Positions 220-8,259 of a DNA stretch of 33,594 bases are shown piece by piece. The notes under the pieces were generated by a model that worked only from the letters and a program-made list of their open reading frames with translations, did not search any database and had not been told where the DNA came from. The position numbers were made by a program, and so were the translations under genes. Position 1 is the first letter of the stretch. The number at the start of each line of letters is the position of its first letter. Source of the DNA: Pseudomonadota bacterium (GTDB lineage: Bacteria; Pseudomonadota; Gammaproteobacteria; Xanthomonadales; Rhodanobacteraceae); the NCBI GenBank assembly GCA_021795435.1, contig JAJYPJ010000002.1:1-33594 (forward strand), written 5' to 3'.

Positions 220-239
220 GCGCAGGGAGGAGACGGGAA

Positions 240-1103
240 ATGCAGAGAATTCGACCCTTTTTCATGCGGGCCCATCGCGTGGCCATCGATGTCATCGACG
301 ATGCAATGATTGATGGTCTGGCGCTTCGGCAGAACGTCGTCGCATCGCTTGCGCAGCGGAAGCGCCGCAACGGCTTGCCCCTCAGGGACGACGAGCGCGA
401 ACGCCAGGTCCTTGAGCGGGCCCGGCAAAGGGCTGGACGTTGGCAGTTGGATCCCCTTGATGCCGAGCGGCTCATGCGCGCGACCATCGAATGCGCCGTG
501 GACAAGCAGGTGCGCGGCGAAGTCGAGCGGACCGGGAGGACGGTCGCGTTTTCAAGCCTTCGAGATCGCCTTCTGGCCTTGCTGCCGCCGCCGCGTGTGC
601 TCGCGGTTCCGTTGCGCCTCGTTCCCGACCCATGGCAGCAACGATTCGTCGAGATGGTCGTCGAGCGCGTCCTTCAGGCGCCACTTGCTGCGGGCAAGCT
701 CGATTTCCTTGTCGACCGGCGATTGGCCATTCAGATCAACGATCTTGGAATTCGGTGGGTCCTCACCGTACGCGATGGCCGCATCCACCATTGCGGTTGC
801 AAGGCGGAGGCCGAAGCGGCCGTCCAAGGCAATGCCCTGGAATTCATGCTCCTCGCGGGTCGCCTGGAAGATGCCGACACGCTGTTCTTCCAGCGACGGC
901 TGGCGCTGACCGGTGATACGGAACTGGGACTGACCGCTCGGAACCTGCTGGACCAGTTGCCCTGGGAGTCCGTTCCGCTCGCGCTTCGCATCGGTCTGCA
1001 TCGACTCGCGACCCTGGCGTCCGACGCACGCGAAGCGCATGGTCGGATCCGTGGCAAGCCAGCGCCACGGGCGCTGGCCCAATTGCCGCCCGCCAAGGCG
1101 TGA
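240..1103 (+). CDS. ubiT: chorismate-mutase-like domain fused to UbiT (SCP2 lipid carrier of O2-independent ubiquinone synthesis)
   Basis: The protein has 287 residues, while stand-alone UbiT (YhbT) has about 174. Residues 105-265 match UbiT: an SCP2-type fold with the signature DTLFFQRRL (213-221) followed by GDTELG (225-230). UbiT is the lipid-binding accessory factor that works with UbiU and UbiV in oxygen-independent hydroxylation of the ubiquinone ring. Residues 10-92 are extra. They align without gaps to the AroQ chorismate mutase domain of E. coli PheA as I recall it. Its active-site residues correspond to R13, R30, K41, D50, R53, E54 and Q90 here, and only the Ser84 equivalent differs (A86). 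The domain may therefore be a working chorismate mutase or a related lyase (PchB shares the fold). The start has a strong SD (GGGAGGAG). The gene converges on ubiV, and its promoter carries an FNR-like box. UbiT identity is secure; the domain's activity is inferred. Confidence 0.88.
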   Translation: MQRIRPFFMRAHRVAIDVIDDAMIDGLALRQNVVASLAQRKRRNGLPLRDDERERQVLERARQRAGRWQLDPLDAERLMRATIECAVDKQVRGEVERTGRTVAFSSLRDRLLALLPPPRVLAVPLRLVPDPWQQRFVEMVVERVLQAPLAAGKLDFLVDRRLAIQINDLGIRWVLTVRDGRIHHCGCKAEAEAAVQGNALEFMLLAGRLEDADTLFFQRRLALTGDTELGLTARNLLDQLPWESVPLALRIGLHRLATLASDAREAHGRIRGKPAPRALAQLPPAKA

Positions 1104-1197: not shown

Positions 1198-2076
1198 TCA
1201 GGTGACGGCCATGGCGGGTAGTTGTGCCATTCCGGCCCGTCCATGCCAGTATCCATTGCACTCGCCGCGCCGCGTTCGGGGCGGCTCTTGCATGGCAGCA
1301 CGGAAATACGCGATGACGGAGGGCATGTCCTGTGACTGCGGGTACAGGCGCAAAAGATCTACGCCCGCGGCGCGAACTTCGTTGATTTCAGGGGCGAGAT
1401 CGCAGATCGACTCACTTTGGACCTGAATGCCATTGATGCGCAGGAACGGGTCGCCTTCGCGCGTCGAGAGCGGCAGGCCGCCCGAGTCCTCGATGCAGCG
1501 AAACCCACAATCATCCTTGGCGAGATCGTGTGCCCTCGCCGTAAAGCAGCGAGCTGAATAAGCCAATGGCAGGCGGCCCCAGGCGATCAGCTCGATTTCG
1601 GGCCAGAACGCGGGATCCGCCACCTCCCGGGTCTCGAGCAGTTGGTCACGGCCCTGCTCCACGCCGGGCACCCAGCGCTTCATTCCCGCGCGGCGCATCA
1701 ATTCCATCGCGCGATGGTTGTAAAGATTGATGCCGGGCCCCGCGACAAATGGCAATCCGCGCTCACGCAGCATTTGCACAGCGGACATGTCGTTCGCCTC
1801 GACCAGAAAACTCCCGTTCTCGACCAGACGCCGCAGGCGCGCAAGCTCAGATTCGGCTTCGATCAGGGTCAGTGTCGACAGGACGACCTCGCGCCCAGCA
1901 GCGACCAAGTCGCGGGCAAGGGTTAACCAGTCGTCTTCGCGAAGCTCCCGGCGCTTGCTGCATACCGTTTCGCCAAGATAGAAGACATCGATGGGCTGTT
2001 CCGCCATCGCCGAGTAAAAATCGAGTACTTGGCGACGAGGCCAGAAATATTGCAGGGGGCCGAGGGTCAATCGCAT
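1198..2076 (-). CDS. ubiV: UbiV, Fe-S subunit of O2-independent ubiquinone hydroxylation (peptidase U32 family)
   Basis: This 292-residue protein has the same length as E. coli UbiV (YhbV). UbiV pairs with UbiU as a 4Fe-4S heterodimer that hydroxylates the ubiquinone ring using prephenate rather than O2 as the oxygen donor. The four expected cluster cysteines are visible as C39, C177, C190 and C194, with the family's spacing between the last three. I chose the ATG at 2076 (MRLTLGPLQYFW), because the open frame extends further upstream only through ubiU in another frame. The gene begins 8 nt after the ubiU stop codon with no clear SD, so its translation is probably coupled to ubiU. It is the last gene of ubiD-ubiU-ubiV and converges on ubiT. 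Confidence 0.95.
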   Translation of the reverse strand: MRLTLGPLQYFWPRRQVLDFYSAMAEQPIDVFYLGETVCSKRRELREDDWLTLARDLVAAGREVVLSTLTLIEAESELARLRRLVENGSFLVEANDMSAVQMLRERGLPFVAGPGINLYNHRAMELMRRAGMKRWVPGVEQGRDQLLETREVADPAFWPEIELIAWGRLPLAYSARCFTARAHDLAKDDCGFRCIEDSGGLPLSTREGDPFLRINGIQVQSESICDLAPEINEVRAAGVDLLRLYPQSQDMPSVIAYFRAAMQEPPRTRRGECNGYWHGRAGMAQLPAMAVT

Positions 2077-2084
2077 GCGTCGAC

Positions 2085-3080
2085 TCAGTGCCAGGATCGA
2101 TGATAGGGACCCAGCGTCGTTCGTACGCCCTCTGCGACGCGACCGAGCGTGGCCTGCCAATCCGAGTCGACTCGAAAGTTCGGAGCATCCTCGCGCAAGC
2201 GGTCGATGGCGCGACGCCACACCGCCGCGACTGCGCCCACGTAGGCCGGGCTCCGTTGGCGCCCCTCGATCTTCACCGCGGCGATCCCGCAGGCTGCAAG
2301 GCGTGGAAGCAATTCCAGCGTGTCGAGACTTGTCGGCTCTTCCAGCGCGTGAAAGACCTCGGTGCCCACCTTGTAACGCCCCTTACAGACCGTCGGATAG
2401 CCCGCGGCCTCGCCATCGGCGAACCGGTCGATCAGCACGCCGTTGAGGCGCACGGTGCGTCCTTCGCCAGTTTCGTCCCAACGGACGAATTTGGCGGGGG
2501 AGCAAACGCCATGGCGATTGGGCGAAGCCCCCGTTACATAGCTTGAAAGCTGGCACCGGCCTTCGACCATGATGCACAAGCTTCCAAAAGCGAAAGTCTC
2601 CAGCGGCACGGGGGATTTTTCCGCGAGTCGCTCGACTTGCTGCAACGCAAGGACTCGGGGCAGGACGGCGCGACTGATACCGAACTCCGACGCGTAGTAG
2701 CGAAGCGCAGCGTGACTTGTGGCCGAACCCTGGACCGACAGGTGCCGCGGCAAGGCCGGATAATGGCGGGCGGCGTAATCCAGGACCGCCATTTCCGCGA
2801 TGATCAGGGCATCGACGCCCGATGCGGCGGCCTGGTCTACAACGTTCTCCCAATGGACAAGCCTTTGGGTCGTTGGATAGGTATTGAGCGCTAGGTAGAC
2901 CTTGCGGTGACGTGCATGGGCATAGGCGATTCCGCGGCGAAGATCCGCCTCGTCGAAGTTCAGACCCGGGAATGCGCGTGCGTTCGTCTCATCGCGAAGG
3001 CCCACGTAGACCGCATCGGCACCGTTGTCTACGGCCGCCTGCAAGGAGGGCAGGCTGCCAGCCGGGCAGACCAACTGCAT
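2085..3080 (-). CDS. ubiU: UbiU, Fe-S subunit of O2-independent ubiquinone hydroxylation (peptidase U32 family)
   Basis: This 331-residue protein is identical in length to E. coli UbiU (YhbU) and begins MQLVCPAGSLPSLQ. It is the partner of UbiV in anaerobic hydroxylation of the ubiquinone ring. The cluster ligands C169, C176, C193 and C232 fall at the same residue numbers as in E. coli UbiU from memory. The U32 features FGSLCIMVEGRC and EGRQRSPAYV are intact. The frame is open for 114 codons upstream, but that part overlaps the end of ubiD and has no UbiU homology, so I place the start at 3080, where GGAG precedes the ATG by about 8 nt. It lies 55 nt after ubiD in the same operon. Confidence 0.96.
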   Translation of the reverse strand: MQLVCPAGSLPSLQAAVDNGADAVYVGLRDETNARAFPGLNFDEADLRRGIAYAHARHRKVYLALNTYPTTQRLVHWENVVDQAAASGVDALIIAEMAVLDYAARHYPALPRHLSVQGSATSHAALRYYASEFGISRAVLPRVLALQQVERLAEKSPVPLETFAFGSLCIMVEGRCQLSSYVTGASPNRHGVCSPAKFVRWDETGEGRTVRLNGVLIDRFADGEAAGYPTVCKGRYKVGTEVFHALEEPTSLDTLELLPRLAACGIAAVKIEGRQRSPAYVGAVAAVWRRAIDRLREDAPNFRVDSDWQATLGRVAEGVRTTLGPYHRSWH

Positions 3081-3135: not shown

Positions 3136-4623
3136 TTACTGATCCAGGTCAAGACCCGCACCAAAAGTCTGCGCCCACAGCGCGTCGACCCGCGCCTCGA
3201 CCAAGGGGTCCGGCCGGATGGGCCGGCCCCATGCCCGATGGGTCTCGCCCGCGACCTTGGTGGTGGCATCAATGCCCAGCTTGCCACCAAGGTTGGGATC
3301 GGGACTTGCGAAATCCAGATAATCGACTGGCGTGCGATCGACCACCAGACAATCGCGCGCGGGGTCGACCCGCGTCGAAATGGCCCACAAGACGGCATCC
3401 CAATTGCGCACATCGATGTCATCGTCGGTGACGATCACGAATTTCGTGTACGTGAACTGCCGCAAGTACGACCACACGCCGAACATCACGCGACGTGCAT
3501 GGCCTGGGTAACGCTTACGGATGCTGACGACCGCTACGCGATAAGAGCAGGCCGCGGGCGGCAGGTAAAAGTCAACGACCTCGGGAAAAATGCGACGCAG
3601 GATCGGAACGAACAGATCGTTCAACGCCATCGCCAGGACGGAAGGCTCGTCGTGCGGCGAGCGACCCATCCAGCTGCCTTGGTAAATGGCACCGTCGCGG
3701 CGGCACATACGGTCGACCGTGAAGACCGGAAAGCGGTCGACCGCGTTGTAATAGCCGGTATGGTCGCCGAATGGCCCTTCGAGGGCGGTGTCACCCGGCT
3801 GAATATGGCCCTCCAGGACGATTTCCGCGCTTGCGGGAAGGTCCAGTCCGGTCAGGTCGCTCCGCAGCACTTCTCCACGTGCTCCGCGGAGCAGTCCGGC
3901 AAATTCGAATTCCGACAGCGTGTCGGGCAGGGGCGCCACAGCCGCCAGCGTGGTTGCGGGGTCGGCCCCAATCGCCACGGCGACCGGAAATGGATCCGCC
4001 GGATGCTGCTCGCACCATTCAGCATGGTCTTGTGCGCCACCGCGATGGGCGAGCCAGCGCATCACCACGCGATTTCGACCGAGCAGTTGCATGCGGTAGA
4101 TGCCAATGTTCTGACGCTGCAGGCGGTGACTCCGGGTAATGACCAGGCCGAGGGTAATCAGGGGCGCGGCATCCTCCGGCCAGCACGTTTGAATGGGCAG
4201 CTCCGCGAGGTCCACGTCGGGGCCTTCGCGACGGTCGAATTGAAACGGAGCGCTGCGGGCGGGTTTCGGTGCCACGAGCGCGAGCTGGCCATAGATGGGC
4301 AAGGCGGCGGCGGCAGCGCGGAGCGACCCCGGCCAGCGGGGCTCTTTGAGCTCCGCCAAGAGTTCGCCCAGTTCGCGCAGCGAAGCGACGGGCCGACGGC
4401 CAAGTGCCATCTCGATGCGACGCACGCTACCGAAGACATTGCCCAGGAAGCGGTGGCGGCTAGGTCCCGCGTGCTCGAACAGCAACGCCGGGCCATCGCA
4501 TCGTTGCGCGCGCTGGCAGAAGGCTGTGATTTCGAGGTTCGAATCGACTGCCGCCGTGACGCGCCGAAGTTCGCGGGAACTTTCCAGCGCCGCAATGAAG
4601 GCGCGCAAGTCGTGGTAGCTCAT
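3136..4623 (-). CDS. ubiD: UbiD, 3-polyprenyl-4-hydroxybenzoate decarboxylase
   Basis: This 495-residue protein (E. coli UbiD is about 497) is a prenylated-FMN-dependent decarboxylase. It removes the carboxyl group of 3-polyprenyl-4-hydroxybenzoate after UbiA, a step that needs no oxygen. The family's R-E-D/E active-site set appears as R177 (IYRMQL) with E282 and D287 in EGPFGDHTGYY. The C-terminal segment LGIDATTK is typical. The start at 4623 is supported by GAGGG 8 nt upstream. ubiD is the first gene of a minus-strand operon with ubiU and ubiV, so a decarboxylase and both anaerobic hydroxylation subunits are made together. No ubiX, the prFMN supplier, is in the window. Confidence 0.95.
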   Translation of the reverse strand: MSYHDLRAFIAALESSRELRRVTAAVDSNLEITAFCQRAQRCDGPALLFEHAGPSRHRFLGNVFGSVRRIEMALGRRPVASLRELGELLAELKEPRWPGSLRAAAAALPIYGQLALVAPKPARSAPFQFDRREGPDVDLAELPIQTCWPEDAAPLITLGLVITRSHRLQRQNIGIYRMQLLGRNRVVMRWLAHRGGAQDHAEWCEQHPADPFPVAVAIGADPATTLAAVAPLPDTLSEFEFAGLLRGARGEVLRSDLTGLDLPASAEIVLEGHIQPGDTALEGPFGDHTGYYNAVDRFPVFTVDRMCRRDGAIYQGSWMGRSPHDEPSVLAMALNDLFVPILRRIFPEVVDFYLPPAACSYRVAVVSIRKRYPGHARRVMFGVWSYLRQFTYTKFVIVTDDDIDVRNWDAVLWAISTRVDPARDCLVVDRTPVDYLDFASPDPNLGGKLGIDATTKVAGETHRAWGRPIRPDPLVEARVDALWAQTFGAGLDLDQ

Positions 4624-4786
4624 TGGGCGGCCCTCGCTGCAAACGGACGACGGACACGCACAACGCGTTCATCGGTTTTCGCAACGCATCTCGGATGGTT
4701 TGACGACAGCGACACGGGACGAACCGCCTTTCTTGGGGGGAATGCCCGGCGCATTGCACGTCGGCGGCAACCGCGGGCCGGCGCGC

Positions 4787-4792
4787 AGTTTG
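4787..4792 (-). promoter_or_regulatory. possible -10 element of ubiDUV promoter
   Basis: On the minus strand this reads CAAACT. It sits where a class II FNR promoter would place its -10, given the box at 4815-4828. The transcript would start near 4780 and leave a leader of about 157 nt before ubiD. The match to TATAAT is weak (3 of 6), so this is a positional prediction only. The stretch 4624-4814 otherwise holds no gene I can support. Confidence 0.25.
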
Positions 4793-4814
4793 CGCTGGTC
4801 TCGCGCGCCATCCC

Positions 4815-4828
4815 TTGACCTGGGTCAG
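4815..4828 (-). promoter_or_regulatory. FNR/DNR-like box upstream of ubiDUV
   Basis: The plus strand reads TTGACCTGGGTCAG (minus strand CTGACCCAGGTCAA). This is an FNR-family inverted repeat with one mismatch in the right half-site. Its first ten bases are identical to those of the box ahead of ubiT, which supports common control of the two converging units. It lies only a few bases outside the inferred right end of the IS200/IS605 remnant, so the native promoter appears to have survived the insertion. Confidence 0.5.
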
Positions 4829-4845
4829 ATCAATGAACTCTCCCG

Positions 4846-4874
4846 CCGCTAAACCGCTTGCGCGGTTGTAGCGG
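4846..4874 (-). repeat. IS200/IS605-type right-end imperfect hairpin
   Basis: The plus strand forms a 12-bp stem: CCGCTA (4846-4851) pairs with TAGCGG (4869-4874), and AACCGC (4852-4857) pairs with GCGGTT (4862-4867). G4868 is bulged and the loop is TTGC. A subterminal hairpin with a bulged base just beyond tnpB is the hallmark of IS200/IS605 right ends. In intact elements it also forms the scaffold part of the TnpB guide RNA. Confidence 0.6.
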
Positions 4875-5440
4875 GGGGTTTCGCGGGTCACAGACTTCGA
4901 CCTGCCACGTTGCCGTGGCCGAGGTTTCGGTCTCGCCGCCACGCCCGTTCCAGGCGTGTGCGCGTCGATGAGTACCACCAACGCGCTGTTCTGGTCGCGC
5001 TGCATGATGTGCCCGCAGTGCGGGCAGAGATGCATGCGGTCGGCGAGCGTCTTGGGAACGACTTCCCAACACGCGGAGCACCGCTGCGACGGTTTGAGTT
5101 GGCGCGTGTTGCTCAGGTGCAGGCGCGTACCAGCTTCTTCCGCTTTGTACGCGAGCATCTGATGCGCCATGCCGAACGCCGCCGAGAGAATTTCCCGGTT
5201 GAGTCCGGCTTTTCGCCGCACGCGCCGCCCCGGCTCCTGCTCGGTGCCTCGGGCGCTGCGGCTCATGTTCTTCGGTGCGAGTTCTTCGGTCGCCAGCACC
5301 GCGCACTGCTGCACCATGCGCGACGTTTGCTTGTGCCGGAAGTCACGGTGCAGGTTGCCGATGCGCTCATGCAGCCGGGCCAAGCGGAGGCTCAGCCGCT
5401 GGTGCCGAACGGAACCCCGGCGCTTGCGTTCGCGCAAGTC
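4850..5440 (-). pseudogene. truncated TnpB (IS200/IS605-family OrfB) remnant
   Basis: The frame encodes the C-terminal half of a TnpB RNA-guided nuclease. It runs from RLARLHERIGNLHRDFRHK through the RuvC-II glutamate (LATEELAPKNM) and a zinc finger (CSAC ... CPHCGH) to the RuvC-III aspartate in RDQNSA. The N-terminal half, including the RuvC-I aspartate, is missing, and nothing recognisable as TnpB lies upstream of about 5440. The frame lacks its own stop and runs through the right-end hairpin into ubiD. With one catalytic acid lost it cannot be a working nuclease. No TnpA transposase is present. It sits between fabB and ubiD, and its ends are approximate. Confidence 0.8.
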
Positions 5441-7569: not shown

Positions 7570-7911
7570 TTACGCCTTCATCTTGTGAGCCGAGCACCAG
7601 CCATTCGTGTTGACGTCATTGCCGGGGAACAACTGGCACGGCGCCCAGCTCGAGCCGGCCTTGGCCTGGCAGAACGCGCAGTTGGCGCAACGCTGGGCGT
7701 CCGTATGGTTGGGGAACTTGGACTGGTTGACTTGCTTGGTGTTGTCGACGTAACCCAAGGCCTGGGCCGCCGGGTTATCCGGCGTCAGGTGCGGCAAGCC
7801 ACCAGCGCGCGCGGCGCGCGGCAGCATGGCGACGACTACGGCTGCCGTCGCGGTGCCGGCGGCAAGCTTCAGGAATTGGCGACGCGATTCGGTATTCGCG
7901 ATCTCGGACAT
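7570..7911 (-). CDS. high-potential iron-sulfur protein (HiPIP) with Tat signal
   Basis: This 113-residue precursor has a twin-arginine signal (SRRQFLKLA, residues 9-17, then a hydrophobic stretch ending about ARA at 34-36), so the folded protein reaches the periplasm with its cluster. The mature part carries the HiPIP 4Fe-4S ligands C75, C78, C92 and C106 in CANCAF, PCQLFPG and NGWCSAH. HiPIPs are soluble one-electron carriers, usually to terminal oxidases, photosynthetic reaction centres or nitrogen-oxide reductases. A fifth cysteine, C81, sits where F, Y or L is common. I placed the start at 7911, preceded by AGAGGTG, and not at the longer frame start at 8082. A perfect FNR box lies 77 bp upstream, pointing to expression at low oxygen. 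The gene is monocistronic, with its own terminator. Confidence 0.95.
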
Positions 7912-7936
7912 GACACACCTCTTGTTCAACTTTGGA

Positions 7937-7954
7937 CACGGCGACAGTGCCGTG
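7937..7954 (-). promoter_or_regulatory. stem-loop at the predicted 5' end of the HiPIP mRNA
   Basis: CACGGC-N6-GCCGTG is a perfect 6-bp inverted repeat. The FNR box geometry puts the transcript start at about 7953, so this hairpin would form the very 5' end of the message. 5'-terminal hairpins often protect mRNAs from decay. It could alternatively be a protein-binding site. Confidence 0.35.
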
Positions 7955-7960
7955 GCATCG

Positions 7961-7966
7961 AGACTA
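7961..7966 (-). promoter_or_regulatory. predicted -10 element of the HiPIP promoter
   Basis: The minus strand reads TAGTCT. It is within 1 bp of the -10 position expected for a class II FNR promoter with its box centred at 7994.5. The predicted start is near 7953, giving a leader of about 42 nt. Confidence 0.4.
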
Positions 7967-7987
7967 GGAATGCCCTTGCTGCCCGGC

Positions 7988-8001
7988 TTGATCTGGATCA
8001 A
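7988..8001 (-). promoter_or_regulatory. perfect FNR/ANR box upstream of the HiPIP gene
   Basis: TTGATCTGGATCAA matches the FNR/ANR consensus TTGAT-N4-ATCAA exactly in both half-sites. It is the only regulatory site in the 348-bp space between the HiPIP gene and tatD. The remainder, 8002-8259, shows no gene or further structure that I can support. The direction towards the HiPIP gene is inferred from spacing, because tatD on the other side ends here. Confidence 0.85.
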
Positions 8002-8259
8002 GCGTGCGCGATCACCGCCTTTTGCACGGCGGCGTTGGCACATGGAACGCGCGCCAACCGGCCGAGTCCGTCTGGCCAGCACACTGATTCAAAAGGATTT
8101 TTTGGTGCGCTGCGGCAACCTGACGCAACCGGGTCAAACTGCTCCCCGCGACGATTTGCCCGACCCGTCGTGCGCGTCGGACAGATGCCATTTTCCTTTC
8201 GAAGCAATTACGGACCAGTCCTCCCGCCCGAGCGGCCTGCGGCCCCGCCCCGATCCCAC

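Follow-up and report, generated by a model that had tools for sequence, protein, structure and literature searches.

The window, by which we mean the whole 33,594-nucleotide stretch of DNA analyzed here, carries a gene in which an AroQ-type chorismate mutase (CM) domain is joined in a single reading frame to UbiT. We consider it likely that the product is a bifunctional UbiT, with an active CM that makes prephenate where and when (at low O2, under FNR control) UbiU and UbiV (UbiUV) need it. The features of the locus are summarized in Table 1. The ubiV and ubiU genes are convergent to cm-ubiT within the window, and ubiD lies further along their strand.

Table 1. Features of the cm-ubiT locus in the window
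Feature	Coordinates	Strand	Remarks
FNR-type box TTGACCTGGGACAA	178..191	+	62 nt 5' of the ATG; differs from TTGAYNNNNRTCAR at one position
Ribosome-binding site GGGAGGAG	225..232	+	seven bases 5' of the ATG; read from the sequence
cm-ubiT fusion gene	240..1103	+	287 aa; ATG start; stop-free single ORF (P0001)
AroQ-type CM domain	276..509	+	residues 13-90
Linker	516..572	+	residues 93-111; fast-evolving
UbiT part with SCP2 lipid-binding domain	573..1022	+	Pfam and NCBIfam matches
ubiV (peptidase U32 family)	1198..2220	-	relatives match 1201-2076
ubiU (peptidase U32 family)	2085..3080	-	probable start MQLVCPAG
ubiD decarboxylase	3136..4623	-	upstream of ubiU, same strand

An earlier, sequence-only reading of this DNA had described an uninterrupted frame with a Shine-Dalgarno sequence ahead of it, and both are present. 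It had also placed about 90 extra residues before UbiT. The extension exists, but it is longer, at about 110 residues made up of the CM domain and a linker of about 19. Profile searches place both expected domains in the protein above their cut-offs and confirm the proposed AroQ similarity, matching CM_2 and the E. coli CM. Pfam CM_2 (PF01817) matches residues 13-90 with 51.7 bits (cut-off 27, E = 1.1e-13) over model positions 2-79 of 80, and thus the whole domain. SCP2 matches residues 146-238 with 48.2 bits (cut-off 21.3), and the NCBIfam UbiT model NF047962 matches residues 125-243 with 126.8 bits (cut-off 46.9, E = 5.6e-37) over positions 1-119 of 120, which is the whole UbiT domain. The same pair, CM_2 and SCP2, was found in all 60 fusions collected from relatives. 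Weighing against an active CM, the domain in the window does not reach the curated cut-off of any listed NCBIfam CM model, the best being TIGR01791 with 41.5 bits against 66.95.

The N-terminal domain aligns without gaps to the CM domain of E. coli PheA (EcCM, 1ECM), as had been proposed, with E = 0.0067 for the single sequence and 1.3e-12 for a 60-row profile. In this register R13, R30, K41 and D50 correspond to R11, R28, K39 and D48 of the E. coli enzyme, and R53, E54, A86 and Q90 to R51, E52, S84 and Q88. The full set of R11, R28, K39, D48, R51, E52 and Q88 is therefore matched in the window, and the active-site residues named earlier, including the change of Ser84 to Ala86, are right. The active-site set of E. 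coli CM is named in passages of PMC5526877 and of PMC4281200. Among the 60 fusions R13, R30, K41, R53 and E54 are invariant, while Q90 is present in 59 and D50 in 57. Of the eight catalytic columns, seven rank in the top 12 of 81 for conservation (P = 1.7e-6, a guide only, given that the 60 rows are related). The CM domain is under purifying selection, like UbiT: in four close pairs dN/dS is 0.10-0.26 in CM and 0.12-0.20 in UbiT. Linker values, obtained from three of these pairs, run from 0.71 to 1.25. An AlphaFold2 model of the fusion (pLDDT 87.9, pTM 0.70) has helices at 5-43, 51-67 and 72-96, followed by the SCP2 part. We take the three helices to be the AroQ layout of EcCM.

The exception in the active site is the position of Ser84, which is Ala in 55 fusions, Gly in four and Ser in one. 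Its replacement in 59 of the 60 argues against an active CM, and could be explained if the domain were a non-catalytic module that dimerizes UbiT, or that senses or binds chorismate or prephenate without turnover. AroQ domains dimerize by intertwining and have a regulatory function in some DAHP synthases, and the stand-alone CMs found beside ubiT in other families (see below) lack Gln88, both of which are in keeping with such a role. Yet there is no variation at the five charged core residues and hardly any at Q90, and a regulatory module would have no use for the complete catalytic set. Ser84 of E. coli CM is described as important in orienting the substrate in a passage of PMC4281200, but according to part of PMC5526877 the AroQ domain of B. 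subtilis DAHPS has Gly at this position, so that Ser84 is not strictly defining for an AroQ CM. Moreover, the M. tuberculosis CM (MtCM) has neither Ser84 nor Gln88 and is still active with its partner, as a section of PMC4281200 describes. We regard a non-catalytic role as unlikely.

The sequence-only reading had offered three guesses for the domain: a source of prephenate on the spot for UbiUV, a lyase, or a binding site for the ring of the lipid intermediate. The last of these may apply. The lyase would resemble PchB and make an aromatic acid (e.g. 4-hydroxybenzoate or salicylate) from chorismate or isochorismate. PchB shares the fold, and the isochorismate-lyase model PRK07075 does match weakly, but its 19.6 bits (cut-off 126) are far below the scores of the CM models, such as the 41.5 bits for TIGR01791. 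At E = 0.001 the lyase model matches nine of the 60 fusions whereas several CM models match 59, and in a PDB profile search E. coli CM (1.3e-12) is far above PchB (~7e-5). A lyase was rejected on these profile scores, and we consider it very improbable. Of the three guesses the supply of prephenate is the best supported, by the retained catalytic set, by the CM genes beside ubiT elsewhere with their FNR-type boxes, and by what is stated in part of PMC11574389; catalysis and channeling are presumed.

A join of two separate genes, by chance or by sequencing error, could also generate such a frame. CM and UbiT are in a single ORF in 60 of the 62 distinct pairs from relatives, with linkers of 45-159 nt (measured between the ends of the HMM domains) that differ in sequence as well as length. 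That these lengths are multiples of three follows from the single frame and adds no further evidence. The loci were gathered by likeness to the fusion, one set being the best 80 of 566, and this favors finding it; pairs were sought on one strand only with CM less than 400 nt ahead of UbiT, and close relatives were counted separately. Nevertheless, so many in-frame linkers of different length exclude a chance join, and a join made by sequencing or assembly is ruled out by the same frame test. In the two exceptions, L062 (Luteimonas granuli) and L067 (Arenimonas daejeonensis), CM and UbiT are in different frames, through either a break of the fusion or a sequencing error. These two loci are what a pair of separate genes would predict, as are the internal methionines and FNR-type boxes that occur in linkers; the linker of the window gene contains no internal Met. 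Two genes run together in this way are hardly credible.

Among 99 relatives searched, the fusion turned up within the genus, the family and the order. In a sample of 250 genomes of the order (which as grouped here takes in Wenzhouxiangella) 61 have a UbiT match at E <= 1e-30, of which 32 have the full fusion, one has a remnant (G042) and 28 have UbiT alone. The full fusion is present in 32 of the 33 UbiT genomes of families f1-f4, and in none of the 28 of families f8, f9, f10 and f12. The exceptions in f1 among the 99 relatives are the remnant and two genomes (G019 and G047, loci L019 and L030) with UbiT and no CM. A third such locus is L069, again in a family that otherwise carries the fusion, and L028 retains just one end of the CM part. 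Among 80 loci with NCBI names (the best 80 of 566, some from the same genomes as in the other samples) 46 are fused: 24 of 27 in Lysobacteraceae, 11 of 12 in Rhodanobacteraceae, one of three in other Lysobacterales, 10 of 12 unclassified and none of 26 others. A class-wide search of 369 genomes gave no full-length fusion match outside the order among the matches listed. These loci, the 28 of 61 UbiT genomes of the order that have no CM on UbiT, and E. coli, which is likewise without one, weigh against the bifunctional reading.

In a tree of CMs the 60 fusions, L062, L067 and a relic (L302) form a single clade (support 98/95). This clade falls in a larger and less firm group (89/88), together with CMs encoded in frames of 376-496 aa that are mostly of the same order and probably PheA. 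The positions of the stand-alone CMs in the tree are unsure because there are few columns and long branches, and in an AU test a single clade of fusions and stand-alone neighbors was not rejected (p = 0.40), so that a separate origin of the latter does not follow from the tree. A recent duplication of the other CM of the window genome was ruled out as the origin of the fused domain, as that CM is of the CM-TyrA type and far away in the tree. The relic L302, on the minus strand of genome G026, is a fused-clade CM without ubiT ahead of a FabA-like frame (judged by eye). It has the catalytic Lys changed to Arg, UbiT was not detected in G026, and it is probably what remains of a fused-clade CM.

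The window genome (G000) has one UbiT match, two CM matches and three matches to O2-dependent Ubi hydroxylases. Its second CM is fused to prephenate dehydrogenase, and prephenate dehydratase was not found in the assembly, which is 89.9% complete. Both observations would suit a CM that serves general phenylalanine and tyrosine synthesis, tied to ubiT only by regulation or history, as would the grouping of the fused CMs with probable PheA. However, the partner in the fusion is UbiT and not an enzyme of amino-acid synthesis, five other families again show a CM gene beside ubiT, and in G026 the CM has lost its catalytic Lys where UbiT was not detected. A general role in amino-acid synthesis is thus improbable. 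The CRP/FNR regulator of the window genome has N-terminal cysteines (judged by eye) and a hemN-like neighbor, so that it is presumably a true FNR.

Three other frames of the window may be mentioned. An ORF at 4460-5437 (minus strand) directly adjoining ubiD is the TnpB-like C-terminal part of an IS605-type element; it matches the Cas12f1-like TNB family, and its match to OrfB_IS605 is weaker and under the cut-off. The end of a frame at the contig edge (1-138, plus strand) contains several cysteines (CLNCYAKSC...) and has no Pfam match at E = 0.01. A high-potential iron-sulfur protein with a Tat-like signal is encoded at 7570-8082 (minus strand), near fabA/fabB and the anaerobic ubiquinone genes.

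Outside the order, a small stand-alone CM gene adjoins ubiT in five of 80 ubiT regions (L146, L148, L149, L200 and L221), at gaps of 166-333 bp and in five different families of the class. Four are divergent from ubiT; the fifth follows it in the same orientation. All five score above the Pfam CM_2 cut-off. Only 0.14-0.29 CMs would be expected this near ubiT (P = 4e-7 to 1e-5) at assumed rates of 1-2 CMs per Mb, for CM rows that were noticed in the class-wide search before the regions were picked by UbiT match. No CM was found farther off in the 80 regions (about 735 of their 877 kb), using a search profile built from the fusions that could miss very different CMs. The sample comprises 80 of the 87 UbiT rows outside the order (E <= 5.2e-21), the seven omitted being among the weakest; G330, of a strength like those omitted and with a CM already seen, was kept. 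Forty ubiT regions taken from other classes of the phylum contained no CM near ubiT, nor was there one within the flanks of about 1.5 kb in 30 further regions of the class (one of these, G259, is also among the 80). R11, R28, K39, R51 and E52 are kept in all five stand-alone CMs, while, as judged by eye, Gln88 is absent from all and Asp48 from three. Their activity may therefore be low, or may need a partner. In its lack of Gln88 the DAHP synthase-activated MtCM (described in part of PMC4281200) is like them, although partner, lineage and context differ and this is a resemblance only.

An FNR-type box accompanies all five loci: four match TTGAYNNNNRTCAA exactly, and that of L221 deviates from it at one position. 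The box is located between CM and ubiT in the four divergent loci, and in L146 between ubiT and ubiU, just upstream of ubiT. For the fusions we used TTGAYNNNNRTCAR, which we take to be the FNR-type consensus. An exact match is present within 250 nt ahead of the CM domain in 15 of the 60 (0.08 expected; the upstream slice of L101 was wrongly cut in this count, and no exact box came from it). The position of the box in the window gene is shared by the relatives L004, L006, L007 and L012, at 61-62 nt. Exact boxes also occur inside the linker, in 15 of the 60 fusions where 0.02 are expected, and a further 18 have a linker box with one mismatch, making 33 in all. In L011, L017 and L020 the linker palindrome is 83-92 nt before the UbiT part and is read as D-x-D-Q-G, the same bases serving as a regulatory site and as coding sequence. 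In L011, L013, L015, L017 and L020 there is an internal Met downstream of the linker box, and these genes may therefore yield a long CM-UbiT as well as a short UbiT. Such an arrangement tells against the CM-UbiT reading, since UbiT alone could be the induced product. With no Met between its CM domain and UbiT part, the window gene likely gives only the long form. Control of ubiTUV by FNR in E. coli is described in part of PMC10470549, and is predicted widely according to part of PMC11707229.

How might a bifunctional UbiT work? The N-terminal AroQ domain would convert chorismate to prephenate, and the C-terminal SCP2 domain would hold the ubiquinone intermediate and dock UbiUV. Prephenate would then be the oxygen donor for the O2-independent ring hydroxylations by UbiUV, made at low O2 under FNR control at the site of its use. 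The CMs of amino-acid synthesis deliver prephenate for tyrosine or phenylalanine and are often subject to feedback control. A dedicated CM would keep the supply apart from these, and the gain could be either local concentration or freedom from their feedback control, between which the data do not separate. CM catalysis, contact with UbiUV, and channeling or insulation as the benefit are what we infer; a single molecule may combine the supply and the use of prephenate. Part of a 2024 review (PMC11574389, citing Ferizhendi et al., PNAS 2024) names prephenate as the origin of the hydroxyl in anaerobic ubiquinone, and it also states that direct evidence for catalysis of prephenate-donor chemistry by U32 enzymes is still to be shown. 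Prephenate is required for the sister U32 enzyme TrhP and, by citation, RlhA (a passage of PMC6599085). Because prephenate is the reported source of the hydroxyl and TrhP and RlhA require it, the CM on UbiT most likely supplies prephenate to UbiUV.

UbiT, AroQ domains and the requirement for prephenate are already known. UbiT (YhbT) of E. coli likewise has an SCP2 domain and a ubiTUV locus under FNR control (part of PMC10470549), but it is a protein of 174 aa that is mostly SCP2 domain with no CM domain, as described in part of PMC6747719. EcCM shares the gapless alignment, the catalytic set and presumably the three-helix layout with the domain in the window; it differs in retaining Ser84, and in being fused to prephenate dehydratase rather than to a lipid-binding Ubi factor. 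Bifunctional CM-TyrA and CM-PheA proteins also join CM to a user of prephenate, but there it goes to amino acids, whereas in CM-UbiT it would go to ubiquinone hydroxylation. The ubiT-ubiU fusion of Zymomonas mobilis is another fusion within an anaerobic ubiquinone locus, for which no CM is mentioned in the sections of PMC6747719 consulted. In the literature searched we found no mention of a CM joined to UbiT, of CM genes linked to ubiT or of linkers that contain FNR-type boxes (Ferizhendi et al. 2024 being the likeliest place for one), and the word chorismate had only unrelated uses in the ubiquinone papers examined.

A broader proposal, to which we give about even chances, is that the anaerobic ubiquinone pathway of several gammaproteobacterial lineages has a fourth component, a dedicated CM induced by lack of oxygen. 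This CM would be fused to UbiT in Lysobacterales and placed beside ubiT elsewhere, perhaps recruited more than once. It would pass prephenate through UbiT straight to UbiUV, and the organic oxygen donor would arise within the hydroxylating complex itself. The fusion leads one to expect the five stand-alone CM genes in the same pathway as CM-UbiT. As a tool, a single protein that may both make the donor and hold the acceptor could be combined with purified UbiUV to reconstitute the reaction. The reported use of prephenate as an oxygen donor is recent and chemically unexplained, and a CM-UbiT fusion that occurs in nature provides evolutionary evidence for this link. The fusion further suggests that UbiT is the docking point for the supply of the donor.
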